Positions 20,546 through 42,200 of a stretch of DNA of 64,000 bases are shown here, piece by piece. The stretch spans positions 1 through 64,000 of the forward strand of contig CALEDJ010000049.1 of the NCBI GenBank assembly GCA_937951485.1, given 5' to 3'. The notes under the pieces were generated by a model. The model worked only from the letters and a program-made list of their open reading frames with translations, was not told where the DNA came from and did no database searches. Source of the DNA: an uncultured bacterium. GTDB taxonomy: Bacteria; Hydrogenedentota; Hydrogenedentia; Hydrogenedentales; CAILVY01. Every line of letters begins with the position of its first letter. Position 1 is the stretch's first letter. Made by a program: the position numbers and the translations under genes.

Positions 20546-23500
20546 CTAACGGTCGCCTTTCGCCTGCACGGAACAGCATGCTTCGTGGGAGTGATCAATG
20601 CATGCCTGAAGGACTGCCGCGAGTTCGCATACATACGGGTGCAATAACAACGTTGCATGCGACCCTTCAACTACGTGAGTCATGACTGGTTCCGAGGCGA
20701 TCTTTTCCCATCCCAGTCCAGGCGTGCATTTTCCCGCCGTGGCTCTGGTGGTGATAACCGTTATGCGACCGGGATATGGTCGGCATTCGTAGGACAACAT
20801 CGCGACAAGTTTTTCTTTCAATACTTTTGTCACGTGCCGCACGAATGGATCTTCAATTAGAAATAGCCGTTTATCCCTGAAGCGCGGTTTTACAAGACCG
20901 CTTTCTTTCAGGGCAAATTGTTCGTGCATATCGAACCATGCCCATTCCAAGTAGGTTCTCAAAGACACATCCTCCGTTCTGCAGGAAGGTCTTCCCGTCA
21001 CTTTGCGCAGAGACACCTTTACACCGTCTCGCAGATACCCACAAACCAGGGGCCACATGCGCATGACAATGACTATCTTGCTCAGCACGAGAGTACCGAA
21101 TTTCCAGATTCTTGGCAGGATCGGCTCAAGGATGTCGGCATTTTGCCTGGGTACCGGCGTATCAATCAATGCCAGCAGCGCAACTTCTTCCCCGGCCTGC
21201 CTCAGTTTTTGGGCCATCTCAAAAGCAACAAGGCTTCCGAAAGACCAGCCGCCCAGATAGTAGGGACCGTGGGGCGAAATATTGCGAATGGACTGGATAT
21301 AGAGTTCCGCGATCTCCGGTATTGAAGGAAAAGAATCATGTTCTTCATCCACGCATGGGTCTTTGAGGCCATAAAAAGGCTGCTTGGAATCCATCTGACT
21401 GGCAAGCGGGCCCAGGTGGCCCGTAACAGTGCCTGCACCAACTGCCATAAAGAACGGAGGGTTTGTGCTTCCCGCGCGAAGTTGCTCGATGTACGAGTCA
21501 TCCGAAGACGTGATCGCCGGAGACTCCCGCAGAACGGCGCTTTGCGTGTCGTCTATCGCCGCCGATCTTTGAGGCAAACGAGCGACGAAGCGGGCAACGG
21601 TAGGCGCTTCATACAAATCACGCACGCCAGCCTTGATATTCATTTCATGATCGATCTGGCACAGCAATTGAACGGCAAGGAGGGAGTGTCCGCCGATTTC
21701 AAAGAAATTATCGTGAATGCCCACCTTTTCGACCTGTAGAACCCGGCGCCAAAGCAGACACATCTGCGCTTCCAGATCGTTTCGAGGCTCGGCGAAAACG
21801 GCCTCCGAAACGCCTGGAGCAAGAGGCATCGCCAGCAATGCGCGACGGTCCACTTTTTCGTTCCTGGTCAGTGGGATTGCGTCAAGAAACGCGATATCGG
21901 CAGGAATCATGTAATCAGGCAGTTTCTTCCCCAGGTACTCCTTGAGCGCATGAGCAGACGCCATTTGTCCCGGCTGCAGCACCACAAAGGCCGTCAGGCA
22001 TTTATCTCCAGCGACACGTTCCCGCTGCAACACGACAACCTCTTTCACCGCGGAATGCTGAAGCAAAGTCGCTTCAATTTCCCCTGGTTCGACTCGGAAA
22101 CCTCGAATCTTGATCTGGTTATCGCGACGGCCGCAGAATTCAATGTTCCCATCCGGAAGATACCGCGCCAAGTCGCCAGTCCTGTACAATCTGTTCCCTG
22201 GCTCTTCCGAAAAGGGATTCGGAATGAACTTCTCGGCTGTCAAGTCCGGCGCATTGAGATATCCCCGCGCCAAACCATCGCCGCCAATGAACAGTTCGCC
22301 TGTTACTCCAACAGGGACAGGTTGAAGCGATTGGTCCAGAATGTACACTGAGGTATTGGCAATCGGCCTGCCTATCGAAACAGTATCCCCGACATCGGAG
22401 AGGTCTCTCATGGGGTGGCAGCATGCGAATGTGGTGGACTCCGTGGGGCCATAGCCGTTGATCAAGGTGGTGTTCCTCAAGAACTGCAAGGCGCGTCTGA
22501 CGTGTGCTACGGACAAGACATCCCCCCCGGAGAGCAGTTGCCGCACACAGGACAAGGACTCCAGGTCATGGTCCACCATCTGGTGGAATAGACCGGCTGT
22601 AAGCCAAAGGGTCGTGACCCGGTACCTTTTCACCAATGAACCGATTTCAGCCAGGGAAAGCAATCCCGGCGGCGCCACTGCAAGCCTTCCGCCATTGAGC
22701 AGGCTTCCCCACAACTCGAAAGTGGAAGCGTCAAAAGAAAGCGGCGCCAACAACAGATGGCATTCTTCGGGGCCAAAAGACGCATAGTTGGTATTCTTCA
22801 CCAATCGGACCACGCTGCGGTGTTCTACGCATACCCCCTTGGGAACGCCCGTGGACCCCGAAGTATACATGACATACGCCAGGTCCGTTGCGGCAGGCCG
22901 TTCAGGCAGATTGTCAGGAGAAATCGCCGACAAGACATCCGATAGTCCGTCAAAAGAAAAGACCGGGCAAATATCGCCGGGAAGACGCCCTTCAAAACGA
23001 TGGTCCATCAGGATCAAAACAGGCCGCGTCTCTTCAAGGATCAGACGCATCCGGGCTTCCGGTTCGTTGGGGTCAATTGGTACATAGGCGGCCCCCGACT
23101 TGAGGATCGAGAGGACCGCCACTACGGCTTCCTTGCTCCTTTCCATGCACAGCGCCACCAGGCCGCCCTTGAGCGCGCCTTGGCTGCGGAGAAAGCGCGC
23201 CAGACGGTTTGCATGCGCGTTCAGTTGTTCGTAGGTGACGGTTTCCTCTCCCTGGCAAAGAGCGATGGATGCGGGAAACCGTTCAGCCTGTGCTTCAAAA
23301 AGTTCCGAGATGGAAGCGTCACGTGGATACTCGCTGTAGACGCCGCGCCATTGCCGTAGAAGATGCAGGTCCTCTGCATCCAGTAGCGCCAGTTCGCCGA
23401 CAGGCTTTTCGGGGGCGGTAAGCGCATCACACAGAAGATTCTGAAAGTGCCTGAAGAGCCTGTGTGCGGCATCATCATCAAAAATATGCGCCGCATACTC

Positions 23501-26500
23501 CAAGTCGAGCCGCAGACCCTGGTCTTCTTCGTACGGCAGCAACGTCAGCGGCAGTTTTGCCGTGCCATTATGCAGGGCAACAGGCGTAACATTGATGCCT
23601 TCAAAACGCCACTTGCCGCCTGGCACGGTCTGTCCCGCAACCATGCTCTGGACCAGGGGAACACTATCCGCAGTGCGACACGGGGCCAATTCCCGCACCA
23701 ACAACTCAAAGGGGAGGTCCTGATGTTCCAGCGCCGCGACTGTCCCCTCTTGCACCTGGTTCACAAGCGCTTCAAACGGTATTGCAGCGGACACTGTGGT
23801 GCGCAGGACAAGCGTGTTGGCGAAAAGACCTATGATCGGCTCCAGTTCCCGACGCGACCGGCCCGCATTCACAAAACCGACCACGATATCTTCAGTGCCG
23901 GAGTAGCGGAACAGGAAGGCCTTCCATGCTGCCATAAGAACTGCAAACACCGTCGTCTTCTTGTTGCCGCACAGCGCCCGAAGAGCGCTGGTGAACCGTT
24001 GCTCCAGTCGGACGCTCAACAGCCCGCCCCTCCTGGGGCTTTCAGTTTTGGATGCCCGGCGCTTCAGAAAAATCGGTTCGGGCGTGTAGTCGCGAAGATA
24101 GTCCAACCAATAGGCCAGATTTTTTTCGAATCTCTGTTGTGCGGACGCCGACCTTTCCCAGGCTGCGTAATCAAAATAGGTGACGGAAAGATTCGGGAGA
24201 TTCGGTGTGCGCCCTTGAACAAACGCATTGTAGAACTCGGCCAACTCTTGGAAAAACAGACTTTCCGACCAGCCGTCGAAAATGACGTGATGAATGAGTA
24301 TTGCCAGGACAAACCGTTTGTCGTCCAGACGGTAAAGTTCAGCGCGCAGCAACGGACCTTGGAAAAAATCAAAGCGACAGGAAGCAAGCGCTTTCGCCCG
24401 TGAAATGGCTTTCTCATGGCGCAGTTCTTCTGCCTCTTGTGACAAGTCCATGGTCTGCAGAAGGCCCGGGCGAAAGGCGTCCGCAACCTGTGTGGCCATT
24501 CCGTCGGACTCTGCAAAATGTGACCGAAGAGCCTCATGTCGCTGCAATAGCGCGTCGAAGGACCTCGCAAGAGCCGCTTCATCCAGCGGGCCGTTCAATT
24601 CAAATACAAGCGGCACATTGTATTCCACGAGGGAAGGCGACATTTTTTCCAGGAAGTACATCCCCTCCTGCGGGTAAGACAACGGAACCGGCGCACGCTT
24701 GTCCCGGGGCGGAATATCCGGTTGAACTGCAGGCCCGGAGATCGGTCCGCTCTCCGGACCATGCTTTTCCCGCAATGCATCTGCATGTCGGGCGAGGTCC
24801 TGGATGGTAGGCCGCTTGAATACATCGCGTAACGCAATGTCCACCCCCAACCGGTCTCTGATATGAATGGCCATCTCCACCACCAGCAAGGAATGCCCGC
24901 CCAAGGAGAAGAAATCTTCCGTGATTCCAACATTGTCAATTCCAAGAATGGACTGCCAGATAGCCGCCAATACGCGTTCCGTCTCCGTCTTTGGCGCCAC
25001 ATATACGCGGTCTCCAAAGGAAATTCCCCAGTCAGGTACGGGAAGAGAATTCCGATCCACTTTTCCTGTCGTCGTCATCGGAAATGATTCCACGAAAACA
25101 ATGGCGGCAGGAACCATGTAGTATGGCAGGCATTGCCGCAGGGCCGCGCGAATCTCCGAATCAACCGGAGGCGACTCTGCATCGGAAGGAATAACATATG
25201 CCGCGAGGCGAATATCGTCTTCGGCGACCGTGTGTACGACCACGACGGCATCGTGGACTTCCGGAAGTGAGCGCAACGCCGCTTCAATCTCGCCTGGTTC
25301 TATGCGCAAACCCCGGATTTTTACTTGGTGATCAGTGCGTCCTATGAAGACAAGATTATTATCCCCCTCAAGACGGCACAAGTCGCCGGTCCGATACCAC
25401 GGTCCGCAAGGCGTGCCGGGAATATCCAGTGAGACAAAACGTTCGGCGGTCAGTTCAGGTTTGTTGATGTAGCCGTCAGCGACACAAAGGCCACCTACAT
25501 ATAGTTCTCCCACTTCCCCAGGTGCGACGGCTTGCCTTTGGTCATTGAGCACGAGCACTTGGACGTTTGGCAAAGCCCTGCCTATGGGCACTGGATACCC
25601 ATCGAATTTGCGCGGGTTTGAAATGGGGAAAAATGTTACGGCGTCCGTGCATTCCGTGGGTCCATAATAGTTGGTCAAACTTGTGCGAAACGTTTCGCGC
25701 TGCCACCACCGTCGCAGTCGGGAAAGATCCAGCGGTTCCCCCGCCAGAACCAGATGCCGCAGACGGTCGAGCCACGAAAGTTGCTCCTCCGTGGCGCGGT
25801 TGACCATCGCATAAGCGTGCGTCGGCGTGCAATTGATGATGGTGCTTCCCGTGACTGCAATTTCGCGGACAATCATTCGCGGATCAAAGTCTTCCTGTTC
25901 GGGAAGATACAAGACGCCCCCGCACACGAGAGGCGCAAAGATATTCTTTTGAGTGAGGTCAAAAGCGACCGACGTAACCAGCAGCAACGCGTCTTCAGGT
26001 CGCCACTCCAGATAGTTCACATACCAGGAAATAAGATTGTCAAAGGCGTCATGGCGGACGATTGCGCCCTTGGGGCGCCCGGTGCTGCCGGAGGTGTAAA
26101 TAAGGTAGACAGGGCGACGCGCATCCAAGGCTGTTCCAGGTTCCATATCGCTTTGGTTATGCAGCACGTCGGCCAACGCATCAAGCCTGACAACTTCCGC
26201 GGGGGTGTCCGCCAGGCCTTCCGTCAGACTGCTGACCGTAAGCAATATTTTGGTCCCGCTATCGCGAAGCATGTATGCGAGACGATCGCGTGGATAGAGC
26301 GAATCCATTGGCAGGTAGGTCGCACCGCTCTTTTGGACCCCCAGTATTGCAGTGATTGCCTCGATGGTGCGCCCACAATGCACGGCCACAATATCCCCCG
26401 GACCGATGCCACGCGCCAACAGAAAGTGGGCGATGCGGTTGGCGTGCCGGTTCAACGCATCATATGTGAGTGATGCCGTGCCGCGCGCGACGGCAATTGC

Positions 26501-26551
26501 TCCGGGCTTTCTGTGTACTTGTTTCAGAACTTGTTCGTATACGGCCACCAA
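20546..26551 (-). CDS. Dimodular non-ribosomal peptide synthetase A-T-C-A-T-TE
   Basis: 2001-residue cytoplasmic assembly-line enzyme expected to join two amino acids and release the product. A1 (1-~505) has YTSGSTGRPKGA and YYGPTECT. T1 has GGHSLL with the carrier Ser near 553. C (~620-1050) has HHVIFDGWS near 758. A2 (~1065-1575) has YTSGSTGVPKG near 1233 and GYGPTEST near 1368. T2 has GGHSLL near 1621. TE (~1700-1985) has GWSFGS with the nucleophile near 1771. My hand alignment to the GrsA pocket gives A2 as DAFWLGGTF(K), essentially a valine code; A1 reads about DLKNVAYDA(K) and matches nothing I recall. No N-terminal C domain is present, so A1 initiates. TTG 26551 or GTG 26548 lies just after AGGGGA. 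No MbtH, phosphopantetheinyl transferase or transporter is adjacent. Confidence 0.95.
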   Translation of the reverse strand: MVAVYEQVLKQVHRKPGAIAVARGTASLTYDALNRHANRIAHFLLARGIGPGDIVAVHCGRTIEAITAILGVQKSGATYLPMDSLYPRDRLAYMLRDSGTKILLTVSSLTEGLADTPAEVVRLDALADVLHNQSDMEPGTALDARRPVYLIYTSGSTGRPKGAIVRHDAFDNLISWYVNYLEWRPEDALLLVTSVAFDLTQKNIFAPLVCGGVLYLPEQEDFDPRMIVREIAVTGSTIINCTPTHAYAMVNRATEEQLSWLDRLRHLVLAGEPLDLSRLRRWWQRETFRTSLTNYYGPTECTDAVTFFPISNPRKFDGYPVPIGRALPNVQVLVLNDQRQAVAPGEVGELYVGGLCVADGYINKPELTAERFVSLDIPGTPCGPWYRTGDLCRLEGDNNLVFIGRTDHQVKIRGLRIEPGEIEAALRSLPEVHDAVVVVHTVAEDDIRLAAYVIPSDAESPPVDSEIRAALRQCLPYYMVPAAIVFVESFPMTTTGKVDRNSLPVPDWGISFGDRVYVAPKTETERVLAAIWQSILGIDNVGITEDFFSLGGHSLLVVEMAIHIRDRLGVDIALRDVFKRPTIQDLARHADALREKHGPESGPISGPAVQPDIPPRDKRAPVPLSYPQEGMYFLEKMSPSLVEYNVPLVFELNGPLDEAALARSFDALLQRHEALRSHFAESDGMATQVADAFRPGLLQTMDLSQEAEELRHEKAISRAKALASCRFDFFQGPLLRAELYRLDDKRFVLAILIHHVIFDGWSESLFFQELAEFYNAFVQGRTPNLPNLSVTYFDYAAWERSASAQQRFEKNLAYWLDYLRDYTPEPIFLKRRASKTESPRRGGLLSVRLEQRFTSALRALCGNKKTTVFAVLMAAWKAFLFRYSGTEDIVVGFVNAGRSRRELEPIIGLFANTLVLRTTVSAAIPFEALVNQVQEGTVAALEHQDLPFELLVRELAPCRTADSVPLVQSMVAGQTVPGGKWRFEGINVTPVALHNGTAKLPLTLLPYEEDQGLRLDLEYAAHIFDDDAAHRLFRHFQNLLCDALTAPEKPVGELALLDAEDLHLLRQWRGVYSEYPRDASISELFEAQAERFPASIALCQGEETVTYEQLNAHANRLARFLRSQGALKGGLVALCMERSKEAVVAVLSILKSGAAYVPIDPNEPEARMRLILEETRPVLILMDHRFEGRLPGDICPVFSFDGLSDVLSAISPDNLPERPAATDLAYVMYTSGSTGVPKGVCVEHRSVVRLVKNTNYASFGPEECHLLLAPLSFDASTFELWGSLLNGGRLAVAPPGLLSLAEIGSLVKRYRVTTLWLTAGLFHQMVDHDLESLSCVRQLLSGGDVLSVAHVRRALQFLRNTTLINGYGPTESTTFACCHPMRDLSDVGDTVSIGRPIANTSVYILDQSLQPVPVGVTGELFIGGDGLARGYLNAPDLTAEKFIPNPFSEEPGNRLYRTGDLARYLPDGNIEFCGRRDNQIKIRGFRVEPGEIEATLLQHSAVKEVVVLQRERVAGDKCLTAFVVLQPGQMASAHALKEYLGKKLPDYMIPADIAFLDAIPLTRNEKVDRRALLAMPLAPGVSEAVFAEPRNDLEAQMCLLWRRVLQVEKVGIHDNFFEIGGHSLLAVQLLCQIDHEMNIKAGVRDLYEAPTVARFVARLPQRSAAIDDTQSAVLRESPAITSSDDSYIEQLRAGSTNPPFFMAVGAGTVTGHLGPLASQMDSKQPFYGLKDPCVDEEHDSFPSIPEIAELYIQSIRNISPHGPYYLGGWSFGSLVAFEMAQKLRQAGEEVALLALIDTPVPRQNADILEPILPRIWKFGTLVLSKIVIVMRMWPLVCGYLRDGVKVSLRKVTGRPSCRTEDVSLRTYLEWAWFDMHEQFALKESGLVKPRFRDKRLFLIEDPFVRHVTKVLKEKLVAMLSYECRPYPGRITVITTRATAGKCTPGLGWEKIASEPVMTHVVEGSHATLLLHPYVCELAAVLQACIDHSHEACCSVQAKGDR

Positions 26552-27936: not shown

Positions 27937-27995
27937 ACAATTTATTGTCCGTTTCTTGGAGTTGTTTTGTCATCTCTTTGGCACAAGACTTGCGC
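27937..27995 (+). promoter_or_regulatory. Sigma-54 promoter with upstream ACAAT...ATTGTCCG motif
   Basis: TTGGCACAAGACTTGCGC (27978-27995) matches the -24/-12 consensus closely, with GG at 27980-27981 and GC at 27992-27993. Upstream, ACAATTTATTGTCCG (27937-27951) is nearly repeated before the sigma-54 promoter at 46690. Transcription would begin near 28005 and serve the activator gene and probably the EPS operon behind it. Confidence 0.8.
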
Positions 27996-28073
27996 ATAGA
28001 ACGGCATTGTAAGCCATCGCAGAAGGAACATGAGACGTGGGCTGCGTTCCGCGATCGAAAGAGGAGATTTCCA

Positions 28074-29120
28074 GTGTCCGCTAAAGCGTGCTTGGACAAA
28101 ACGTTTGAAGCGCAGATCATGACGCCGATGCACGAGCGACTCTTGGGAAACAACCCGCGCATCCGCGAAATCAACGAATTCATCCGTGAATTGGCCCGGA
28201 CAAACCTGACGGTTTTCGTGACAGGGGAAACGGGGACCGGCAAGGATATCGTCGCCACTTTGATTCACAACCGTTCCACGCGCGCCAACAGGCCATTCAT
28301 CAAGATCAATTTTCCCAGTATTCCGGAAAGCATCCTGGAAAACGAACTTTTCGGTCATGAACGGGGCGCGTTCACCGGCGCGCACAGTTCCCGTCCCGGA
28401 CGCCTTGAATTGGCCCGCGACGGCACCATTTTCCTGGATGAAATCTCGGAAGTGCCGTTGTACGTGCAGAGTAAACTGATCCATGTGCTGGACAAAGAAC
28501 CCTTCATGCGGATCGGCGGGACGCGCTCCATCACGATGAAGGCACGGATCGTGGCCGCAGCAAACATGGGATTGGATGAATCGGTCGCCCAGGGGCGCCT
28601 GCATTCGGACGTTGCATTCCGTCTCCGGGAAGCGGTGATTGACCTTCCGCCCCTGCGGGAGCGCCCGGATGATATTCCCCTGCTTGCAGAGCATTTCAAC
28701 TACCACGCCTGCAAAATGCTCGGCAAGGACTATCAACGATTAAACCAGGAAGTTGTGGAATACCTCAAGACCCTGCCCTGGCCCGGCAATGTGCGCGAAC
28801 TCGCCGGCCGAATCAAGGAATTCATCACCACCGGCTCTTACAATGCGCTCTTCGGGCAGGAAAACGACAGGGGTGACGGGGGGGGCAATGGAAGAAGGAA
28901 TCTGGAGGATGTTGCTTCTTCCTTGTCAGGGCTGGTGGAGAAGCGGTTCATGTCACTCAATGAAGCGCGCCGCATGGCGGCGGAACAGGCGGAACGGTCG
29001 CTCATCGAAGCGACATTGCGATACACGCTTTGGAATCGGCGCAAGGCCGCAAAACTTCTGAACACAAGTTACAGTTCCCTGTTGCGGCGTATTGACCGAT
29101 ACAAAATCGGAAGGGTGTAA
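28074..29120 (+). CDS. Sigma-54-dependent transcriptional activator without receiver domain
   Basis: 348 residues from GTG 28074, chosen because GAGGAG sits seven bases upstream and because any start before ~28005 would precede the transcription start. The AAA+ domain (~20-250) has Walker A GETGTGKD, the sigma-54-contacting loop in the form GAFTGAH, and Walker B TIFLDEIS. The PWPGNVREL motif is near residue 240. The C-terminal Fis-type helix-turn-helix (~305-345) reads ATLRYTLWNRRKAAKLLNTSYSSLLRRI. No receiver, GAF or PAS domain precedes the AAA+ core, so control must come by expression level or a partner, as with PspF-type activators. It heads the EPS operon and probably controls its own promoter and that of the GH9 gene. 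Confidence 0.9.
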   Translation: MSAKACLDKTFEAQIMTPMHERLLGNNPRIREINEFIRELARTNLTVFVTGETGTGKDIVATLIHNRSTRANRPFIKINFPSIPESILENELFGHERGAFTGAHSSRPGRLELARDGTIFLDEISEVPLYVQSKLIHVLDKEPFMRIGGTRSITMKARIVAAANMGLDESVAQGRLHSDVAFRLREAVIDLPPLRERPDDIPLLAEHFNYHACKMLGKDYQRLNQEVVEYLKTLPWPGNVRELAGRIKEFITTGSYNALFGQENDRGDGGGNGRRNLEDVASSLSGLVEKRFMSLNEARRMAAEQAERSLIEATLRYTLWNRRKAAKLLNTSYSSLLRRIDRYKIGRV

Positions 29121-29149
29121 ATTCACTATTATTGAGAGGAGGATGGGCG

Positions 29150-30400
29150 GTGTTAGTAAGAGCATTCATTTCAACGGCTTGTACGGGAGCGCTTCTGCTA
29201 GGGTTGTGCGCACTTTCCGGGTGCGCCACCACTCCCGCTCCGGACGCACTGAACGAAAATGCAGGCGCCTCCGATGCCGAGACCATCGGCGAAGCGGTCG
29301 TCGTCCCCACGGAGACGCTCAAGGAAGGGGCGGGCGTCGCACCGCAGGACTCCCCGCCGCCGGAACAACCTGAACCGGATGTGGACCTGGCGTACCGAAT
29401 CACGCCGGGAGACATGCTGAGTTTCCGTTCGTTCGACGATGAAAAACTGAGCATGCAGACGGTGGTACGCTATGACGGCTGCATCTCCCTGCAGATGATA
29501 CCGGACCTGCACGTGGCGGGCCTTTCCCGGGAAGAGGCGGAAGAGGCCATCCGTGAGGCCTACTCCACCCTTTATGTGGACCCGCAACTGACGCTGACCA
29601 TTATGGACGCCAAAGGAAAGGTGTTCACCGTGCTTGGTGAAGTGGCCCGACCGGCGGAATACCCCTACACCCGCCCAATCAGCCTGTTGGATGCGATCTC
29701 CGCCGCAGGCGGCATGCGGGTGAATCAGCGCAGCGGCGACTCGTATATCGGCGGGCAGGGCCAGCTCGTCAAGGCCTTCATCATTCGCGAGCACAGCGGG
29801 GAACGTCAGGTAATGGATTTCGATCTCCGCAATTTCCGACACTCCGGCCCCCATCCATCCGATGCCAGGGTGCTGCCCGGCGATATCGTTTACGTGCCGG
29901 AAAGCCAGAACCTGGTCTATCTGCTCGGCGAAGTGGGCAGGGCCAACGTATATGCCATTACGGAAGGGCTGACCCTGCTGCGGCTCCTGGCCTTCGCCAG
30001 CGGTTTCCAGGAGTCCACCGCGCGGCTGCGCCATGTGCTGCTGCTCCGCGAAATCAACGAAACAGAAACGAAAATCATGGTGGCGGACGTCCGTCACATC
30101 ATAAAGACCGGCCAGGATGTGCTGCTGGAGCCGGGCGACGTCATCTATGTGCCCCGCAAACGCCTGGTGAACGCGCGAGAGTTTGTGCAACAGGCCACAG
30201 GCACCATCAGCCCGATCCTGAGCCTTGGGCAGCAGGTGATGAGCCTCTACACACAGGCCTATGACGCTTATTACATGAAGGACCGCATGGACCTGCTGTT
30301 CAAGAGCGGGGCCGACAGGACCAACCTGATCCTGGACAATGCGCTCAGAAACATAGCGGCGACTTCGCCGTTGCAATTTGCGCCGAGTTCGGCAAGATAG
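29150..30400 (+). CDS. Outer-membrane polysaccharide export lipoprotein (Wza-like, SLBB)
   Basis: 416 residues from GTG 29150, with GAGAGGAGG seven bases upstream; a TTG at 29132 would overlap this site. It is a lipoprotein: hydrophobic leader with LSGC, Cys near residue 25. The polysaccharide export domain (~75-160) carries YRITPGDMLSF. SLBB-type repeats follow (~165-245, with VLGEVARPAEYPYTR, and ~260-340, with YLLGEVGRANVYAI). Wza forms an octameric outer-membrane channel for capsule or EPS. The C-terminal ~70 residues form the region that would cross the outer membrane or interact outside. It is followed by the Wzc-like kinase after 15 bp, as is usual in capsule loci. Confidence 0.92.
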   Translation: MLVRAFISTACTGALLLGLCALSGCATTPAPDALNENAGASDAETIGEAVVVPTETLKEGAGVAPQDSPPPEQPEPDVDLAYRITPGDMLSFRSFDDEKLSMQTVVRYDGCISLQMIPDLHVAGLSREEAEEAIREAYSTLYVDPQLTLTIMDAKGKVFTVLGEVARPAEYPYTRPISLLDAISAAGGMRVNQRSGDSYIGGQGQLVKAFIIREHSGERQVMDFDLRNFRHSGPHPSDARVLPGDIVYVPESQNLVYLLGEVGRANVYAITEGLTLLRLLAFASGFQESTARLRHVLLLREINETETKIMVADVRHIIKTGQDVLLEPGDVIYVPRKRLVNAREFVQQATGTISPILSLGQQVMSLYTQAYDAYYMKDRMDLLFKSGADRTNLILDNALRNIAATSPLQFAPSSAR

Positions 30401-30415
30401 GAGTTCTTATTTCTT

Positions 30416-32716
30416 ATGGGTTTCAATGACAACGGCAGATCGGTAATTCTTGAAGCGGCCGGCGGTGGTGTGCCGCAGTTCGGGTCCATGATGGACATCA
30501 AGCGTTTCCTTTGGACTCGCGTCCCCGTCATGGTGCTTGTCGCGGTGTGCGTGGCCATCCCGGCAGTCACGGCGGCATGGTTCCTGGTGCCCGTGGGTTA
30601 CACGGCAAGCGTCGAGTTGCGCTTTTTGGCCACGGCCCCCTTCGTGCTCAGTCGGGAAGATATGCAGACTCCCTACGACAAGTTCCTGAGCACCCAAATC
30701 AGCCTTATCACCGGCAACGCCATTCTCTCGCGGGTGCTGGACGTCCCGGCCATCCGGGAACTCCCGGATGTGGCCAACGCCAACGACCCCCTGGAATACC
30801 TGAAGAAGCGCGTGGCGGCGCGCGTGCAGCGGGGCAGCGAAATCGTGGCCATCACCTGCACCATGCCGGACAAAGACGCCGCGCAGCGCGTATTGCAGGA
30901 GATTGTCTCGGCGTACATGAACTATGCCATGGGCGAAGAGGCGATTGTCGGCAGTGACCGTCTTGCAACCCTTATTAAGGAACGCGATGCGCGCCAGATC
31001 GAACTCGATGCGCAACTGAAACGCATCGGCGATCTCCAGGCCTCGCTGGGCGTGCCGATTGTGGGGCAGACACCGCTGGAAACCGGCGAAGGGCAACTGT
31101 ACAACGAACGCCTCGCCAAAGCGGAAGAAGACCTCGCCAAGGCTGAGAATCAACAACGCGAAGTCCAGTCACAATTGATCCAGATTGAGGGCCTCATACG
31201 GAGCGCCGCAAAGGACGCCCCCATCTACGATTTCGGGGTGGAGGACAGGGTAAGCAGCGACGGGCGTGTTTCCACACTCCGACAGGAAGTGGTCCGCGCA
31301 CAGGCCAATGTCGCCCTTATGATCGAATCGCAACAGGAAAACTCGCCTCAAATCAAAGTGGAGCAGCGCCGCCTCAACAGCCTCAAAGACAGCGTGGCGG
31401 ACTTGGAACTCCTTGTTCGTAAAGAGGCGCTCGAATCCCTGCGCACCCAGAAGATGCTGCAACTGGCCGCCATCAGGAAGGAAGTCGAAGAAGCACAGGC
31501 GCGCGCGACCAAATTCAAGGAACTGACGGAAGGCTACAAGGAACGCCTGAAAAACACCACGGACCAGTTTGCCCAATTGGAGGACCTGAAGAGCAAGGCT
31601 GCGGAAACGCGCCGGACGCTGGAGGCCGTGCGCAACAGCATTGCGACCATCAACGTGGAAAGCAATGCGCCGGCGCGCATCCGGCTCGCGGCCCCGGTGA
31701 CGGTGCCGGGCTCCGGCCCGAATTATCTGCCGCGTGTCATGGCCATTTTTCTGGCGCTGGCGATGAGTGCCGGCGTGGGATTCGGCGTCGGCCTTCTCCT
31801 GGAACTTGCCGACCAGCAGGTGCGCTCTTCCCGGGACCTCGCGCGCCTGACCAAAGTGCCCGTGATCGCCGCCATCCCCCACGCCAGCGAGGATGGCCTG
31901 ACCGAAAAGGCCCACACGCAACTCCCCATGGAAAAAATGCCGTTTTCCATACTGGCCGATGAATACCGCCGGGTGCTGGCGCGCCTCTTGTACCCCGGGC
32001 CGGAAATGGGGAGCGCAAAATCCTTTGTGGTGGTCAGCCCTTCCCGAGGCGATGGAAAGAGCACGCTGACCACCAATCTGGGCGTCGCGCTGGCGCGCGC
32101 CGGTCGCCGGGTGCTCATTGTTGATGTGTCCTATCGGCGTCCCACGCTGGAAAAACGTCTTGACATGCAGGAGCAGCCGGGATTGGCGGAAATCCTGAAC
32201 AGAACCAGAGGCCCCGAACAGGTCATCCGATTCGCGCGCGTCCCGGGCCTCTTTGTGCTGGGTCCCGGAAAAGACACCGGCACCCTTTCCGGCAGGCTGG
32301 CCTCGCGGCGCATGGCAAGGTTCCTGAACTTCGCCGCGGAACGCTTCGACCACGTCATCATTGACACCCCGCCGTGGCTCCTGATGGCTGACGCCAAGTT
32401 GATCACGCCCCTCGTTGACGGGGTCTTTGTCGTGGTGGGATCCGGAGTATCCACGGTCGGGATGGTGAAACGCTGCCTTCAGGAATTGCAGGAGATCGGA
32501 GCGAACGTCATGGGAATTGTCTTGAACGGGGCGCGATGTACGCCGGGCGGCTACATGGCCAAGAACCGCCGCCTGTATTACGGCTATGAACACGAAGATG
32601 AACATGAGAAGCCTCTTCGCCCTTCGGAAAAATCAGCGCAACTGGTCAAACAGACGCTGGCCGAGGCGGCAACGGAGATCTCGCATACTGCGCCGTCATA
32701 CAGGCCATGGACATGA
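30416..32716 (+). CDS. Wzc-like chain-length regulator / tyrosine autokinase
   Basis: 766-residue inner-membrane protein. The Wzz domain lies at ~25-110 after TM1 (VPVMVLVAVCVAIPAVTAAWF). A long periplasmic coiled coil (~180-400, rich in Lys/Glu/Gln heptads) is followed by TM2 (PRVMAIFLALAMSAGVGFGVG, ~436). The cytoplasmic BY-kinase domain has Walker A SPSRGDGKST at ~541, Walker A' VLIVDVSYRRP (Ser where the second Asp of DxDxR is usual) and Walker B HVIIDTPPW. The tail has a modest Tyr cluster (RLYYGYE) for autophosphorylation. Such proteins cycle phosphorylation to control polymer length and export through Wza. The missing A' Asp may lower kinase activity. Confidence 0.9.
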   Translation: MGFNDNGRSVILEAAGGGVPQFGSMMDIKRFLWTRVPVMVLVAVCVAIPAVTAAWFLVPVGYTASVELRFLATAPFVLSREDMQTPYDKFLSTQISLITGNAILSRVLDVPAIRELPDVANANDPLEYLKKRVAARVQRGSEIVAITCTMPDKDAAQRVLQEIVSAYMNYAMGEEAIVGSDRLATLIKERDARQIELDAQLKRIGDLQASLGVPIVGQTPLETGEGQLYNERLAKAEEDLAKAENQQREVQSQLIQIEGLIRSAAKDAPIYDFGVEDRVSSDGRVSTLRQEVVRAQANVALMIESQQENSPQIKVEQRRLNSLKDSVADLELLVRKEALESLRTQKMLQLAAIRKEVEEAQARATKFKELTEGYKERLKNTTDQFAQLEDLKSKAAETRRTLEAVRNSIATINVESNAPARIRLAAPVTVPGSGPNYLPRVMAIFLALAMSAGVGFGVGLLLELADQQVRSSRDLARLTKVPVIAAIPHASEDGLTEKAHTQLPMEKMPFSILADEYRRVLARLLYPGPEMGSAKSFVVVSPSRGDGKSTLTTNLGVALARAGRRVLIVDVSYRRPTLEKRLDMQEQPGLAEILNRTRGPEQVIRFARVPGLFVLGPGKDTGTLSGRLASRRMARFLNFAAERFDHVIIDTPPWLLMADAKLITPLVDGVFVVVGSGVSTVGMVKRCLQELQEIGANVMGIVLNGARCTPGGYMAKNRRLYYGYEHEDEHEKPLRPSEKSAQLVKQTLAEAATEISHTAPSYRPWT

Positions 32717-32741: not shown

Positions 32742-35351
32742 ATGCTGGTTTACTCGATATGGAGATCAATTGCGCGCATTGCGCTCGACATCTGTTGTTT
32801 GGGGGCAGCGTATGCATTCGCCGTGTGGGTGACGGTGGGGCCGGATCAGTCATGGCAGGATGCCGCGCGTGTTCATGGCCTTTATTTCGCGGTCTTTGCA
32901 CTCATCTGGTGTGCCACGGCATTCGATCATCGCCTTTATATGTCGCGACGCGGCGAATCGTTGACTGCCATGCTTTTCGCGGTCACCAGAGTGTATTTCA
33001 TCACGGCGCTGGTAAGCGGCTTTGCACTGGCGCTCTTCCTTCGCAGCGGATACGACCGCGCGTTTTTCGTCGCGTTCGCGTTGAGCGGGCTCGTGATGAT
33101 GCCGGCCGCTGTCCTGGTCTCGCGACCCGGCGTCATGGCGTTGCGCCGCCGCTACAACGTCTGCCGCGTGCTCTTTGTGGGGGCCAACGATAACGCCGCC
33201 CGCCTGGCGCGCGCCTTCCTGGGCGACGAACACCACAGTTATCTTGTGGAGGGGTTTCTGGATGATGACCCCGGTCGCGCCGCCGCCATGCAATCGGACG
33301 ATTTCCCTTGGCTGGGCGGTCTGCGAAACCTCGAACAAGTGCTTGTCGAACGCATGATTGACGAGGCCTATGTGGCGCTTCCCCTCGACCAGCACTACGA
33401 AACCGTCCAGCGAATCGCGCATCTCTGTGAAACATTGGGGGTGCCCCTCCGCCTGGTGGGCGACATGTTTCCCATGCGGCTGGCCGCATGCGATGTCACG
33501 AGCATTGGAAACGTCCCGCTGCTCTCGCTCATGGCCAAGCCGCGCTATCTCTCCAGCATTCAGTTAAAACGCGCCATGGAAGCGGCCATCGCCCTGTTGC
33601 TGCTGGCGGTGTTGACGCCGCTCCTGGCGGTCATCGCAATCCTGATTAAACTGGAATCCAGGGGGCCGGTATTGACGGCCAAGAAATCCCCGGAAAACGG
33701 CGCAGGCAATGGCTGCTTGCCGGGATTTCGCGTACACAACCTCTCTTCCGGGCCCAATCCTGAAACGGAAAAGCCCCGGTTCACACGCATCGGAGGATTC
33801 CTCCGCCGCTCCGGACTGGAAGACCTGCCGCAATTGTTCAATGTTCTGCTGGGTCAGATAAGTTATATGGGCGTGGCTGTTGCGCCCGCAAAAGCGAAGC
33901 ATCCCCCCGCAAATGTCCGTGAGGCACAACGCAGCCATTTCAGAGGACAACTGGCCAGGATATTGCTGCTGGCGGGATTGGACGCATGCTGCATCATTGC
34001 CGCCTATGTCGCCGCCATCTGGCTCACCGCGCCCACACCCGAAATCATGCGCATGAGCCTCAGCGGCAACCTGCTTTTCCTGTGCGTCCAACTGCTGGCC
34101 TGGTACGCCGCCGCGATTGACGGGCGCCTGTGGCGCTGGCGGACAGTCGAGCCAATCGGCCCGTGTGCGTCCGGGCTGCTCCGGGCGGTGGGGCAGGCGG
34201 CCCTGGTCTGCGGGTTCCTGCTCGCGATATTCATCCCCGCCGTGCCGTACACCCGGCGCTTCCTGATGATGTTCTTCATGTTGTCCTTTGCGGCGCTGCT
34301 GACATTTCGCATTGCCATCCGCTTCCTGGCGCGCGTGCTGTATCTGCTCGGCTACGGCATCCGCCGCGTGGTCGTGGTCGGCGCGAACGAGCGCACCGCC
34401 CAACTCATCGAGGCGCTGGGCGGCAAGACCCGCTTCGGCTATCAGATTGCCGGTCTCATCGAAAATGAACAGGACCGCGCCGGCGATATATGCCATTACC
34501 ATCTGCCCTACCTGGGAGATCTCGCCGCCCTGGAGGAACTCCTCACGAAGCAGCAGGTGGACGAGGTCTATATCACCCTGCCCATCCGGTCTCATTTCGA
34601 CGCCATCAAGACCATTGTCAACCGCTGCGCAGAGGCGGGAAAAACCGTCCACATCGTCGCCAATGTGCTCCCCCTCGGTATCGCCCGGAGCAGGGCCATC
34701 ATGATTCATGACATTCCCCTCATCTCCCTCTCCCCTGTGCCGGAAAACTACACGTGGCTCGCGCTGAAGCGTCTCACCGACCTGGTCGTTGCATCCGCGC
34801 TCATCGTGGTCCTGGCTCCCCTGTTCCTCATCGTCGCCCTCCTCATCAAGTGCGACTCTTCAGGCCCGGTTTTCTTCGTCCAGGACCGCATCGGCCGGAA
34901 TCACCGCCGCTTCAAAATGATCAAATTCCGGTCCATGGTCGCCAATGCCGAGACACTCAAAAAGGACCTGATGCACCTGAACGAGGCCGACGGGCCGGTC
35001 TTCAAAATCAAGAACGACCCCCGCGTCACGCGCCTCGGCGCCATCCTCCGCAAGTACAGCATTGACGAACTGCCCCAACTCTTCAACGTCTGGCTCGGCC
35101 AGATGAGCCTCGTCGGACCACGGCCGCTCATGCCCCACGAAGTGGAAAAATTCGAGTGGTTCGAGCGCCGCCGACTCAGTGTCAAGCCAGGCATGACCGG
35201 ACTCTGGCAGATCAGCGGACGCAGCGACATCCCCTTCAGCGAATGGGTCGCCATGGACCTCGCATATATTGACTCCTGGACCTTCTGGGAAGACTTCCGC
35301 ATCCTCGTCAAAACCTTCAACGCCGTCATCTCAGGGCGCGGCGCCGCATAG
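32742..35351 (+). CDS. Tandem-fused undecaprenyl-phosphate sugar phosphotransferase (WbaP/WcaJ-like), first unit degenerate
   Basis: About 869 residues, roughly twice the usual length. The family unit appears twice: N-terminal transmembrane helices, a Rossmann-like domain, then a sugar-phosphotransferase domain. Unit 1 (~1-400) has [17 protein letters not shown] and a transferase that lacks the FRSM segment, ends before the KPGMTGLWQ block and has LEDLPQL where the catalytic pair Asp-Glu (DELPQL) is expected. Unit 2 (~402-869) has [14 protein letters not shown] and an intact transferase: [39 protein letters not shown] and [15 protein letters not shown]. Unit 2 should transfer a sugar phosphate to undecaprenyl phosphate and so start EPS repeat-unit synthesis. 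The exact start is uncertain; ATG 32742 avoids overlapping the previous gene. Confidence 0.88.
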
Positions 35352-35366
35352 GATTCACCCAAAACC

Positions 35367-36599
35367 ATGACACAACCTGCAAAAAACGGCGCAGACATGG
35401 GCGAAAGGATCAGCCTCTTCGTCTTTATCGACGCGTTCGGATGGGAACTGGTCAAATATTATCCCTTCCTCGACGACATCCTCATGGTCAAGGCCCCCAT
35501 GGACACCGTGTTCGGCTACAGTTCCACCTGCATCCCCACCATCCTCACCGGCAAAATGCCCCGCGAACACGGCCACTTCGCATTCTTCACCCGCGCCAAC
35601 GGCGACAACACCCCCTTCGCACGATACAAACTCCTCGCCCGCATCCCCCGCGCCATCACCCGCCGCGGACGTGTCCGCGCGCGCATGAGCAAAATCCTCA
35701 AGCCCCTCCACGGCATCACCGGATACTTCCAACTCTACAACATGCCCTTCGAGCACCTCCACCGCTTCGACTACACCGAAAAACACGACCTCTTCCAGCC
35801 CGGCGGCATCAACGGCGGCATGCCCACCATCTTCGACTACCTCCGCATCAACGACATCCCCGCACACATCGCCGACTGGCACCTCAGCGAAACACAAAAC
35901 CTCGCCGCCGCCCGGCGCGCCCTCCGCAACCCGCGCATCCGATTCGCCTTCGTCTACCTCGGCGCCATGGACAGCATCCTCCACAACGAAGGCAAATTCG
36001 GCGACGGCGTCCCCAATAAAATCCGCTGGTACGGCCACGAAATCCGCCGACTCCTCGACATCGCCCGCCGGCACTACCGCGAAGTCCGCCTCTTCGTCTT
36101 CTCCGACCACGGCATGACCGACACCACCGACTGCTGCCCCCTCATGCAACGCATCGAGCGCCTCGGCCTCGAATTCGGCCGCGACTACCTCGCCGTCTAC
36201 GACTCCACCATGGCCCGCTTCTGGTTCCACACCCCCGACGCCCGACACCGCATCACCGACGCCCTCAGCGCCGAACCCCGCGGAAGCATCCTTAGCCCCG
36301 AACAACTCGCCCGATGGGGATGCGACTTCCCCGAAAACCACTACGGCGAATGCTTCTTCCTCATGAACCCCGGCATCCTCCTCTGCCCCTCCTTCATGGG
36401 AGAAAAACCCCTCGCCGCCATGCACGGATACGACCCCCAACACCCCGACTCCACCGCCGCTTTCATGAGCAATATCCCCGACACCCCGCGCCCCCACCGC
36501 CTCGACAACATCTTCGCACTCATGCGCGACGAAGCCGACGCCATATCCGGCGCAACCGCCACCGAAGCCGCCAAATCGTCTCAAGAGGTCGCGCCATGA
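35367..36599 (+). CDS. Alkaline-phosphatase-superfamily protein (phosphodiesterase/phosphatase-like)
   Basis: 410 residues. Metal-binding and nucleophile motifs of the superfamily are visible. [11 protein letters not shown] gives an Asp near 20. [20 protein letters not shown] supplies the Thr nucleophile near 55-60. FSDHGM carries the Asp/His pair near 250 and HGYDP the last His near 353. No signal peptide is seen, so it is likely cytoplasmic, unlike many family members. Such proteins remove or transfer phosphate or phosphonate-type groups. In an EPS operon it might process a sugar- or lipid-linked phosphate. Third codon positions are almost always C, in contrast with the genes after it. The stop overlaps the flippase ATG. 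Confidence 0.75.
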
Positions 36600-38122
36600 G
36601 TTCCCTGGCATCCCCAGTTGCGGCAGAGGTGCCGGTCCAATCCCTTGGGAGACAGATAATCCTGGGCGGAGCGGTGCTGTCTGTAGCGCGCTTGATGACG
36701 CGCGCGCTGGGGGTCCTTTCCGCCCTCACCATACCCCGGTGGCTTGGCCCCGCCGAGACGGGAATATTCGCCGTCGCAATGCTGGCGATCGGCGCAATCA
36801 ATGCCTTCACGGAATCCGGCCTTGTGGCCGCGTTCATCCAACGGAAAAATGATTACGACCAATATATTCTGCCCGTCCGGACCTTTAATGCACTCCGGGG
36901 CGTGGTGTTGGCGGCAATCGTTTTCTTTTGCGCGCCCTATGTCGCCCATTGGATGGACAGTCCGCGTTCGGCGGACGTGCTGCGGGTCCTCGCGATCGTT
37001 CCGCTGGCCAACGGTTTGACGCCGATGATCTGGACACTGGCCACGAAGCGGCTCCAGTTCGCAGGGCCGGCGAAATACAATGTGTTCATCACCGCCGTTA
37101 ATCTCGCAATCACCATTCCCCTCGCCTGGTACCTGATGAGCGTATGGGCGTTGGTCTGGGGAACAGTGATATCCACCCTCGTCGGCCTGGCAGTTTCCAC
37201 GCTTCTGAGCCGGGAAGGACGTGGATTCACCCTCAAATGGCGTCCTCTCAAGGATTTGCGCCGCTTCGGATTCTGGATATTCCTGACTTCTATCACTGGT
37301 TACATATATATTACCGCCGGAAACTGGATGATCGGCATTTTGCTGAATGTGCAAATCCTGGCGGTTTATACCCTGGCCACAAAGTTTTGCACGTTGTTCA
37401 CCAGTGAGGCCGCCGGAATCGTCAACCAGATGATGCTCCCCGTCTTCTCCCATATTCAGGACGATCTGCCCCGTTTGCGGACCGCTTTCAGGAAATCCTT
37501 TGGAACACTTTCAATGATTGTCATCGGCGTAGGCGCTTTTTTCTGCGTCGCATCGCGCGATTACTTTGTCATCGTCCTGGGCGCAAAATGGGCGGACCAC
37601 ACCAATCTCTTCAACAGCCTTCTCCCCTGGTTGACGATCTGGGGCATCTGCTGGGCCTTTGCCGGCGCTCAAAGCGGCGTCTTCCAGGCGCTCGGAAAAC
37701 CCAACTGGTGGCTGGCGACCACTGTCATCATGTGCATAGCAATACTTTTGCTGACGTGGCCTGCCGTGCGACTTTGGGGCGCGCTCGGCGCGGCCGCTTT
37801 CATGGGCGGCATCGCGGCTGCGATGCAATTTATCCGCAATCTCATTCTTGCCCGCATGCTCCAGTTGCGCTACCGCGAAGTGCTGGACCATGTCGCCACG
37901 CCCGCGTTTGCGGGAATCCTGTCGGTAACCCTCGCGACCCTGGCGCGAGGTCATCTCACTGACAACATCTGGGGACAGGCCATCCTGGCGAACAGCGTTG
38001 TTGTGACCGTTTATCTGGGGACCCTCCTGGCTTTCTCCCGCCACCTCCACCCCAATCCGTTCGAGATGCTCGCACTCTTCAGGGATACGGTCATGGCCAA
38101 ATACAGGGAATGGCGTGCATAA
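36596..38122 (+). CDS. Oligosaccharide flippase (Wzx / polysaccharide transporter family)
   Basis: 508-residue integral inner-membrane protein with roughly 12-14 hydrophobic helices. It begins LILGGAVLSV-like segments after a short cytosolic start ([15 protein letters not shown]), followed by ARLMTRALGVLSALTIPRWLGP, the typical MATE/MOP-type first helix and loop. It would move undecaprenyl-linked repeat units to the periplasmic face. ATG 36596 overlaps the upstream stop (ATGA) and has AGAGG about eight bases before it, so translation is coupled. The end overlaps the start of the next gene by eight bases. Confidence 0.9.
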   Translation: MSSLASPVAAEVPVQSLGRQIILGGAVLSVARLMTRALGVLSALTIPRWLGPAETGIFAVAMLAIGAINAFTESGLVAAFIQRKNDYDQYILPVRTFNALRGVVLAAIVFFCAPYVAHWMDSPRSADVLRVLAIVPLANGLTPMIWTLATKRLQFAGPAKYNVFITAVNLAITIPLAWYLMSVWALVWGTVISTLVGLAVSTLLSREGRGFTLKWRPLKDLRRFGFWIFLTSITGYIYITAGNWMIGILLNVQILAVYTLATKFCTLFTSEAAGIVNQMMLPVFSHIQDDLPRLRTAFRKSFGTLSMIVIGVGAFFCVASRDYFVIVLGAKWADHTNLFNSLLPWLTIWGICWAFAGAQSGVFQALGKPNWWLATTVIMCIAILLLTWPAVRLWGALGAAAFMGGIAAAMQFIRNLILARMLQLRYREVLDHVATPAFAGILSVTLATLARGHLTDNIWGQAILANSVVVTVYLGTLLAFSRHLHPNPFEMLALFRDTVMAKYREWRA

Positions 38123-40832: not shown

Positions 40833-42200
40833 ATGGAAATGAAGCATATTGTTTTTCTGGCGGGGCTTTTCCTTTGCATCCCCGCAGGTACTATCGCCGC
40901 TTCCCTTTCGCGGCGTATTCAAGCAATTGTGCTGATGGCCTGCGTTTTCTCCACAGCATTTATAGATAGTGTTGATGTAAATTTCATGGAGCGATGGTGG
41001 TACCGCGGCACCACACGCGCCATTGAGATTTCCTTTGTAGATTTTTTTGTCTCTGTCTTGTTGTTAAGCGCACTTGTTTCCGGCCTGCGCGGGAAAAGCC
41101 GCCTGTTCTGGCCTGCCGGGTTGGGATTGATGTTTGTTTTTTTTCTCTATTGCGTTTGCAGCGTCCTGCTCTCCGATCCCCGATTGTTTGGCCTGTTTGA
41201 GTTGTCGAAAATGATTCGCGGCCTTCTGGCTTTTCTCGCCATCGCGCTTTATGTGCGCACACCGCGCGATGTGTACCTGTTTATCGTTGTTATAGGGGTG
41301 GTTCTTGTTTTTGAAGGCTCTTGGGCGATTATGCAGCGCTATTTATGGGGATATATGCGTGTCCGCGGTTCCTTTGTTCATCCAAGCGCGCTTGCCAATT
41401 ATTGCTGTCTTCTGGCCCCCTTGCTGCTGGCGACCGCCTTGGCCAAAGTGAATCCGCTGGTGCAGGGCTTGTGTATTCTGGCGTGGACGCTTGCCGTTGT
41501 CGCGGCCATTCTCTCCATCACAAGAATGGCTATTATCACTCTCGTGGTCGTATCTTTCGGCATACTGGTCTTCGCACTGGCCTCTCATTTCAATCCCAAG
41601 AGGTTGTCGCTGGTGGCGCTGTTGGGCATCGTGGGATTGGGACTTTTTATCCGGGGCTACGACAGAATGATGGAGCGTCATCTGGGAATGGTGGCGCTGG
41701 AGGAAGCCGGGGTGGAAGGGGCTGGCCGCCGGGTCTATTACGCCGAAGCCCTGAACATGGCGAGCACCCATGTATTTGGCGTGGGATTGAACAATTGGTC
41801 GTGGTGGCTGAGCGAGGAAAAGGGGTATCCTTATCATAGCACCGACGAACCGGGGGATGGATATCGGGCCGTGATGGCGCATTCCGCGTTTGCACTGGCG
41901 CTGGGGGAACTGGGCTGGCCCGGCCTGTTCATTTTTGTGGCGCTATGGGGGCAATGGCTTTTTCTTTCCGGGCGTTTTCTTTTCGTGCCCAAACCGGACC
42001 TGTTGACCAATGTGTTGTCCGGGTGCTTTTTTTCCACCATCGCAGCCGCCTTGTCGGCGGTCACCGAGCACAATTTCAGAAGTCAGTTGTTTTTTATTGT
42101 CTTCAATATGGTGCTGGGCTTCATGGTTGGGGTGCGCAGAACGAAGATGCAAAGTGAATGTCGCCAATTCACCGTCCAGAACCTGAACCAATGGACATGA
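40833..42200 (+). CDS. O-antigen ligase/polymerase family membrane protein
   Basis: 455 residues with about 10-12 predicted transmembrane helices. A large extracytoplasmic loop (~265-350) contains GAGRRVYYAEALNMASTHVFGVGLNNW and MAHSAFALALGELGWPG. The latter is the Wzy_C/O-antigen-ligase signature with a His near the helix start. In this operon it is the best candidate for the Wzy-type polymerase, though it might instead be a ligase. A 111-bp gap before it contains no gene. ATG 40833 opens a short N-terminal hydrophobic helix. Confidence 0.85.
   Translation: MEMKHIVFLAGLFLCIPAGTIAASLSRRIQAIVLMACVFSTAFIDSVDVNFMERWWYRGTTRAIEISFVDFFVSVLLLSALVSGLRGKSRLFWPAGLGLMFVFFLYCVCSVLLSDPRLFGLFELSKMIRGLLAFLAIALYVRTPRDVYLFIVVIGVVLVFEGSWAIMQRYLWGYMRVRGSFVHPSALANYCCLLAPLLLATALAKVNPLVQGLCILAWTLAVVAAILSITRMAIITLVVVSFGILVFALASHFNPKRLSLVALLGIVGLGLFIRGYDRMMERHLGMVALEEAGVEGAGRRVYYAEALNMASTHVFGVGLNNWSWWLSEEKGYPYHSTDEPGDGYRAVMAHSAFALALGELGWPGLFIFVALWGQWLFLSGRFLFVPKPDLLTNVLSGCFFSTIAAALSAVTEHNFRSQLFFIVFNMVLGFMVGVRRTKMQSECRQFTVQNLNQWT

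Follow-up and report, generated by a model that had tools for sequence, protein, structure and literature searches.

Phosphoglycosyltransferases (PGTs) commit the limited pool of undecaprenyl phosphate, and their control therefore matters for the synthesis of capsule, O-antigen and exopolysaccharide. WbaP is a homodimer held together mainly by the β-hairpin 251–268; its DUF binds uridine nucleotides, and the enzyme is inhibited by UMP (PMC10942596). Catalysis by PglC has been assigned to an Asp-Glu dyad, one lysine and two arginines (PMC12802240). For EpsZ of Myxococcus xanthus, a large PGT, the partner protein EpsW has been proposed to switch the enzyme on by promoting the active dimer (PMC12802240).

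The locus described here lies in a 64,000-nucleotide stretch of DNA (the window) from a draft genome of Candidatus Hydrogenedentota (4.55 Mb, 77 contigs) and encodes a double-length PGT. We propose, with a probability of roughly 0.6, that its first half (unit 1) is a non-catalytic pseudo-PGT, the obligate regulatory or dimer partner of an active PGT (unit 2), and that the two form one covalent pseudo-dimer in this protein. No paper on a PGT pseudoenzyme or an inactive PGT heterodimer was found in the open-licence literature. Judged by this literature, unit 1, if it is a pseudoenzyme, would have no described precedent among the monotopic PGTs; an earlier mention is possible, the superfamily network study (O'Toole 2021) lying outside that scope.

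Overall architecture

The frame 32742–35351 (+ strand) is free of stops, and its 869-residue translation contains two Lg-PGT units in tandem. When residues 1–392 and 393–869 are aligned with each other, they share 32% identity over 384 columns (E 2e-57). Pfam places two Bac_transf and two CoA_binding_3 domains on the protein, which bears out an earlier reading of the window made from the sequence alone (the sequence-only reading), namely that the WbaP/WcaJ architecture occurs twice in one frame. We prefer 32742 as the start because extension to a further in-frame ATG at 32586 would overlap the Wzc-like gene (30416–32716). The features of the protein are as follows.

32742–33872, + strand: unit 1, the pseudo-PGT half (residues 1–377), with four TM helices, DUF (CoA_binding_3), re-entrant helix and a remnant of the catalytic domain
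Residues 2–32, 38–62, 74–99 and 106–138: TM helices of unit 1 in the AlphaFold2 model
33156–33482, + strand: Rossmann-like DUF of unit 1 (residues 139–247; Pfam and AlphaFold2 model)
33486–33533, + strand: predicted β-hairpin of unit 1 (residues 249–264) at the position of the WbaP dimerisation hairpin; model strands 249–255 and 258–264, pLDDT about 56–66
33561–33656, + strand: re-entrant membrane helix of unit 1 (residues 274–305), with the Pro of the DX12P motif kept and the Asp replaced by Glu
33816–33836, + strand: LEDLPQL, remnant of the Asp-Glu dyad of unit 1, swapped
33873–33953, + strand: linker between the units (residues 378–404), where the split relatives show a stop and a new start
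33954–35348, + strand: unit 2, a complete Lg-PGT (residues 405–869) that matches TIGR03025 and has all catalytic residues
34926–34937, + strand: FRSM motif, in unit 2 with no counterpart in unit 1
35064–35081, + strand: DELPQL with the catalytic Asp-Glu dyad of unit 2
35184–35210, + strand: KPGMTGLWQ block, in unit 2 with no counterpart in unit 1

The motifs named in the sequence-only reading were thus found in the units to which it had assigned them, LEDLPQL at 33816 and DELPQL at 35064, with FRSM (34926) and KPGMTGLWQ (35184) occurring once only, in unit 2. In a genome-wide profile search, the Bac_transf stretch of unit 2 spans profile positions 1–178 of 179 at 230 bits, well above the cut-off of 27, and that of unit 1 spans positions 1–114 at 61 bits. 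Unit 2 alone scores 407 bits against TIGR03025 (cut-off 295.6) and 352 bits against TIGR03023, under the cut-off of 410.8. Unit 1 stays below the curated cut-offs of TIGR03025 (179.5 against 295.6 bits), TIGR03023 (178 against 410.8) and TIGR03022 (110 against 403), and the full chain clears the TIGR03023 cut-off solely by summing both halves. Unit 2 has both residues of the DX12P re-entrant helix, D288 and P301. Unit 1 has the TM bundle, DUF and re-entrant helix and lacks a complete catalytic domain with its active-site residues.

The full chain was modelled with AlphaFold2 from 34 aligned sequences (mean pLDDT 75.7, pTM 0.64); the model does not establish the relative arrangement of the two units. 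Two strands are predicted after the DUF in each unit (249–255 and 258–264; 652–655 and 658–662), with a low local pLDDT of about 50–66. The best solved structural match of the model is WbaP (8t53), followed by PglC, and unit 2 scores up to 182 bits against the solved WbaP chains.

Loss of the catalytic residues in unit 1

Aligned to complete PGTs, unit 1 retains the TM bundle, the DUF, the hairpin region and the re-entrant helix; a 20-residue segment is then gone, the DELPQL-like helix is retained, and the sequence ends where VGPRP would be expected to start. In the window, the segment missing from unit 1 includes KFRSM, and nothing follows the DELPQL-type helix. No variation was seen, across 17/17 unit 2s and 23/23 single PGTs, at the positions equivalent to K336, R378, D383, E384 and R402; the correspondence of the Lys and Arg residues to the PglC numbering was mapped by motif, and residue roles were taken from PMC12802240. 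Among the unit 1s, the K336 equivalent is present in 2/17, the GPRP arginine in 4/17 and the C-terminal aspartates in none of the 17. These aspartates are invariant in unit 2s and single PGTs, barring one unit 2 whose C-terminus is unaligned and three singles in which the second Asp differs. The dyad fares differently, the Asp being retained in 12 and the Glu in 10 of the 17 unit 1 proteins. Across the unit 1s, active-site residues disappear piecemeal. In the window's unit 1, the two dyad residues have changed places (D to E, E to D), and acidity is not lost.

Judged from these alignments, the missing catalytic C-terminus is the main lesion of unit 1 and the dyad change a side issue; the stress that the sequence-only reading laid on the altered dyad was misplaced, because dyad residues are often kept in proteins that have lost the other parts of the active site. 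Loss of the dyad as the hallmark of unit 1 was rejected, since one or both residues survive in most unit 1s. From the missing residues, we infer that unit 1 is catalytically inactive.

Unit 1 might instead have its own chemistry or ligand, binding another nucleotide, sugar or lipid, or carrying out transfer alone or with parts borrowed from unit 2. In favour of this, several unit 1s have an unaltered Asp-Glu dyad, the Pro-containing re-entrant helix persists, and most of the domain is still present in one genome, G019. Nearly all unit 1s, however, are without the Lys, the GPRP Arg and the entire C-terminal third; the whole remnant is gone in G001, and the DUF-only forms described below have none. 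We regard this explanation as improbable, and the suggestion in the sequence-only reading that unit 1 uses a different lipid or sugar finds no support because residues for substrate binding and turnover are missing.

Two forms of unit 1 stand at the ends of this series. The unit 1 of G019 (L052:4226–5533) is transitional, with most of the catalytic domain, the loop segment and an Asp-Asp dyad, and stops soon after KPGMTG. In G001, the entire catalytic remnant is absent. Five split unit 1s from five genomes (L039, L041, L045, L047 and L050) carry a conserved K-x-DSPV tail before the stop that is seen in none of the fused proteins; it is possibly an interaction tail.

Distribution in the phylum and beyond

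In a protein search that covered 60 related genomes, split unit 1 genes of 400–450 aa turned up immediately upstream of complete PGTs. In the profile search of 68 genomes of Candidatus Hydrogenedentota that followed, 17 have a complete unit 1 beside a complete PGT, as a separate upstream gene in 13 (G016, G021, G007, G024, G009, G037, G013, G034, G054, G026, G019, G060 and G005) and fused in four (the window's genome, G000, and G042, G003 and G001). The units of the split pairs are 7–106 bp apart (eleven pairs measured). In G005, unit 1 and unit 2 are on different contigs, with unit 2 at a contig end; in G056, unit 1 is broken at contig ends and the pair is probably cut there.

The search for other genomes with the same fusion, which the sequence-only reading had proposed as a check, bears on whether two genes were joined into the double-length frame by an error of assembly or sequencing. 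The draft is fragmented (77 contigs), and the two genes of G016 share one frame with only a TAG stop between them. The fusion nevertheless recurs in the assemblies of G042, G003 and G001, making four separate assemblies, and the G000 and G042 proteins are 58% identical over their whole length. We therefore give such an error almost no weight.

In G055 and G047, the complete PGT is preceded by a short protein that consists of the DUF and a C-terminal hydrophobic stretch only.

L033:809–1357 (G055): DUF-only (CoA_binding_3) gene directly upstream of a complete PGT
L034:684–1364 (G047): DUF-only (CoA_binding_3) gene directly upstream of a complete PGT

These proteins are nearest to the unit 1 DUFs, with weak tree support. 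In G055, a stand-alone receiver-domain protein is encoded just upstream of the DUF-only gene (L055:3634–4083), recalling EpsW/EpsZ (PMC12802240).

Outside Hydrogenedentota, a contig scan with the unit 1 alignment gave no truncated-plus-complete pair among the best 80 matches. The full protein was used as query at a strict threshold, and nothing that covered both units came up in 301 Chloroflexota, 294 Planctomycetota, 299 Verrucomicrobiota and 297 Acidobacteriota genomes, a limited sample of about 1,190; for Verrucomicrobiota, there was no match at all above the strict threshold, which makes that negative a weak one. Plasmid records gave single PGTs only, the matches listed spanning about 1.0–1.3 kb, and PHROGs gave no match.

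Ancestry and fusion history

A tree of 71 sequences was built from shared columns by a quick method, and its deeper branching order is unreliable. The 17 unit 1s are all placed in a single clade (SH-aLRT 98) that excludes unit 2s and single PGTs, and in no genome do unit 1 and unit 2 group together. Recent duplication is rejected on this tree: the unit 1s stand together, apart from the unit 2s, and the clustering of unit 1 within unit 2s of the same genome, named in the sequence-only reading as an argument against its own interpretation, was not found. On a tree of concatenated pairs, calculated with more care, the fused state takes three changes, and the starred branches by themselves force two. 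A single clade of the four fused proteins is rejected (p-AU 0.02); G001 is a long branch on this tree. Recurrent fusion of one pair of genes, each time in one order, points to products that work together. Distances among unit 1s and among unit 2s are correlated (r=0.88; reached in 0/5000 shuffles), and such mirrored trees are also expected from plain co-inheritance of adjacent genes.

Selection and domain conservation

For close pairs with estimable dS, dN/dS of unit 1 is 0.06–0.13, similar to unit 2, with dS near saturation; by this measure, unit 1 is under purifying selection. Compared pairwise, the DUFs of unit 1s are 53% identical; for the unit 2s of these genomes the figure is 44%, a per-column difference of 0.088 (95% CI 0.041–0.135, column bootstrap). 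In the same per-domain comparison, the TM bundles of unit 1 and unit 2 are equally conserved, and the catalytic segments reach 73–82% in unit 2 and are mostly absent or diverged in unit 1. Single PGTs, with a DUF identity of 51%, are about level with unit 1. It is therefore the relaxed DUF of unit 2 that stands out; the contrast may reflect relaxation in unit 2 rather than added constraint on unit 1. We read the conserved DUF of unit 1 and the conserved catalytic segments of unit 2 as a putative division of labour.

These values bear on whether unit 1 is a functionless, decaying relic of a tandem duplication. The catalytic domain is eroded stepwise, from nearly whole in G019 to gone in G001 and G047/G055, as decay would have it. 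The low dN/dS and the DUF conserved at 53% do not fit a relic, nor does one old clade that extends across many families of the phylum, with frames open throughout and repeated in-frame fusion. This explanation was already disfavoured, and we consider it very improbable.

Gene neighbourhood

The double PGT lies among genes of polysaccharide export and assembly.

27945–29120: sigma-54 activator
29132–30400, + strand: Wza-like outer-membrane polysaccharide export protein (Poly_export and SLBB domains)
30416–32716, + strand: Wzc-like chain-length protein/tyrosine autokinase, directly upstream of the double PGT (TIGR01007, 110.9 bits, cut-off 108)
36608–38122, + strand: Wzx-like flippase, downstream (Polysacc_synt_3, 196 bits)
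40833–42200, + strand: Wzy-like polymerase/O-antigen ligase, downstream (Wzy_C, 52 bits)

After the double PGT, the order is a phosphodiesterase-like protein, the Wzx-like flippase, a pyruvyl transferase, the Wzy-like polymerase and a glycosyltransferase. Given these neighbours, the double PGT most likely serves a Wzx/Wzy-type exopolysaccharide cluster as its initiating enzyme. A constant syntenic site downstream of wzc was considered and dropped, being seen for G000 and G042 only. A type I phosphodiesterase/nucleotide pyrophosphatase-like protein adjoins or lies near the PGT in three genomes (window 35367–36599 in G000; L038:7331–8551 and L041:15022–16152 in G042 and G021), and its substrates might come from the pool of UMP or sugar nucleotides. 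Also adjoining the cluster, a 2001-aa protein (20546–26551, − strand) resembles a two-module nonribosomal peptide synthetase with a thioesterase-like end.

A sigma-54 activator occurs in the flanks of 13/20 pair or DUF-only loci, the window's among them, and of 0/12 single-PGT loci (Fisher p 0.0004, a value that ignores shared ancestry and unequal flank length). This association bears on an explanation in which unit 1 is a scaffold or sensor bound at the side that brings in export machinery or a response regulator, while unit 2s homodimerise as in WbaP (for the fusion, a dimer of double chains). Unit 2 does have a DUF and a TM bundle of its own and a predicted hairpin; genes for regulators (sigma-54 activators and receiver-domain proteins) are found close to 13/20 pair loci and to no single PGT (0/12), and the reduction to a DUF in G047 and G055 fits a detachable sensor. 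The regulator association is weakened by the shared ancestry it ignores, however, and the faster evolution of the unit 2 DUF than of the unit 1 DUF would be odd if the unit 2 DUF alone built the dimer. We consider this explanation unlikely, although the strongest of the alternatives.

Proposed role of unit 1

Our preferred reading remains that of an enzyme and its pseudoenzyme partner. Unit 2 would be an active Lg-PGT, predicted from its sequence to transfer sugar-1-phosphate from a UDP-sugar to undecaprenyl phosphate. Unit 1 would be an ancient paralog that lost catalysis but still has its membrane bundle, its nucleotide-sensing DUF and the predicted hairpin for dimerisation, and it would stand in for the second protomer of a WbaP-type homodimer. 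By dimerising physically with unit 2, it may keep unit 2 in a working state, with gating through a ligand bound to the DUF, UMP or UDP-sugar. In most relatives, two chains from adjacent genes would give a heterodimer; in the window, the chains are fused.

What the analysis shows is the anatomy of the pair, active-site residues lost from unit 1, inheritance together over a long time, purifying selection, fusion on several occasions and the relative conservation of the DUF; catalytic inactivity, dimerisation and ligand gating are the predicted parts. The sequence-only reading suggested that unit 1 may be a partner in regulation or dimerisation, in imitation of a heterodimer. This idea is well supported, though indirectly, by the two-gene pair in 13 other genomes, the old clade, the repeated fusion and the retention of the DUF after loss of catalysis; contact between the units is the predicted part of it. 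The DUF-only forms in two genomes are a counterpoint, since the membrane bundle and hairpin are dispensable there.

We hold at even odds the broader proposal that this phylum has a PGT class of its own, in which paralogous protomers divide catalysis and nucleotide sensing between them, as an obligate enzyme/pseudoenzyme heterodimer that was repeatedly fused and in one lineage reduced to a free DUF regulator. Evolution would here have separated the two functions, once down to a free-standing DUF, so that the question can be tested by adding or removing one chain.

Comparison with known systems

The structural prototype is WbaP of Salmonella enterica (PDB 8t53; PMC10942596), whose parts follow one another as here: TM bundle, DUF, hairpin (predicted in the units), re-entrant helix and catalytic domain. 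Both chains of the WbaP homodimer are active, whereas here one half lacks the catalytic C-terminus and is either joined to the active half in one chain or specified by a neighbouring gene. Among the WcaJ/EPS sugar transferase families TIGR03023 and TIGR03025, unit 2 passes TIGR03025 only and unit 1 neither. The small monotopic PGT PglC of Campylobacter concisus (8e37, 8g1n) has the catalytic core and Asp-Glu dyad seen in unit 2; it is a monomer with neither DUF nor TM bundle. In the EpsZ system, EpsW is a single-domain response regulator and not a PGT paralog like unit 1, and EpsZ is without the hairpin that is predicted in both units of the double-length protein (PMC12802240).
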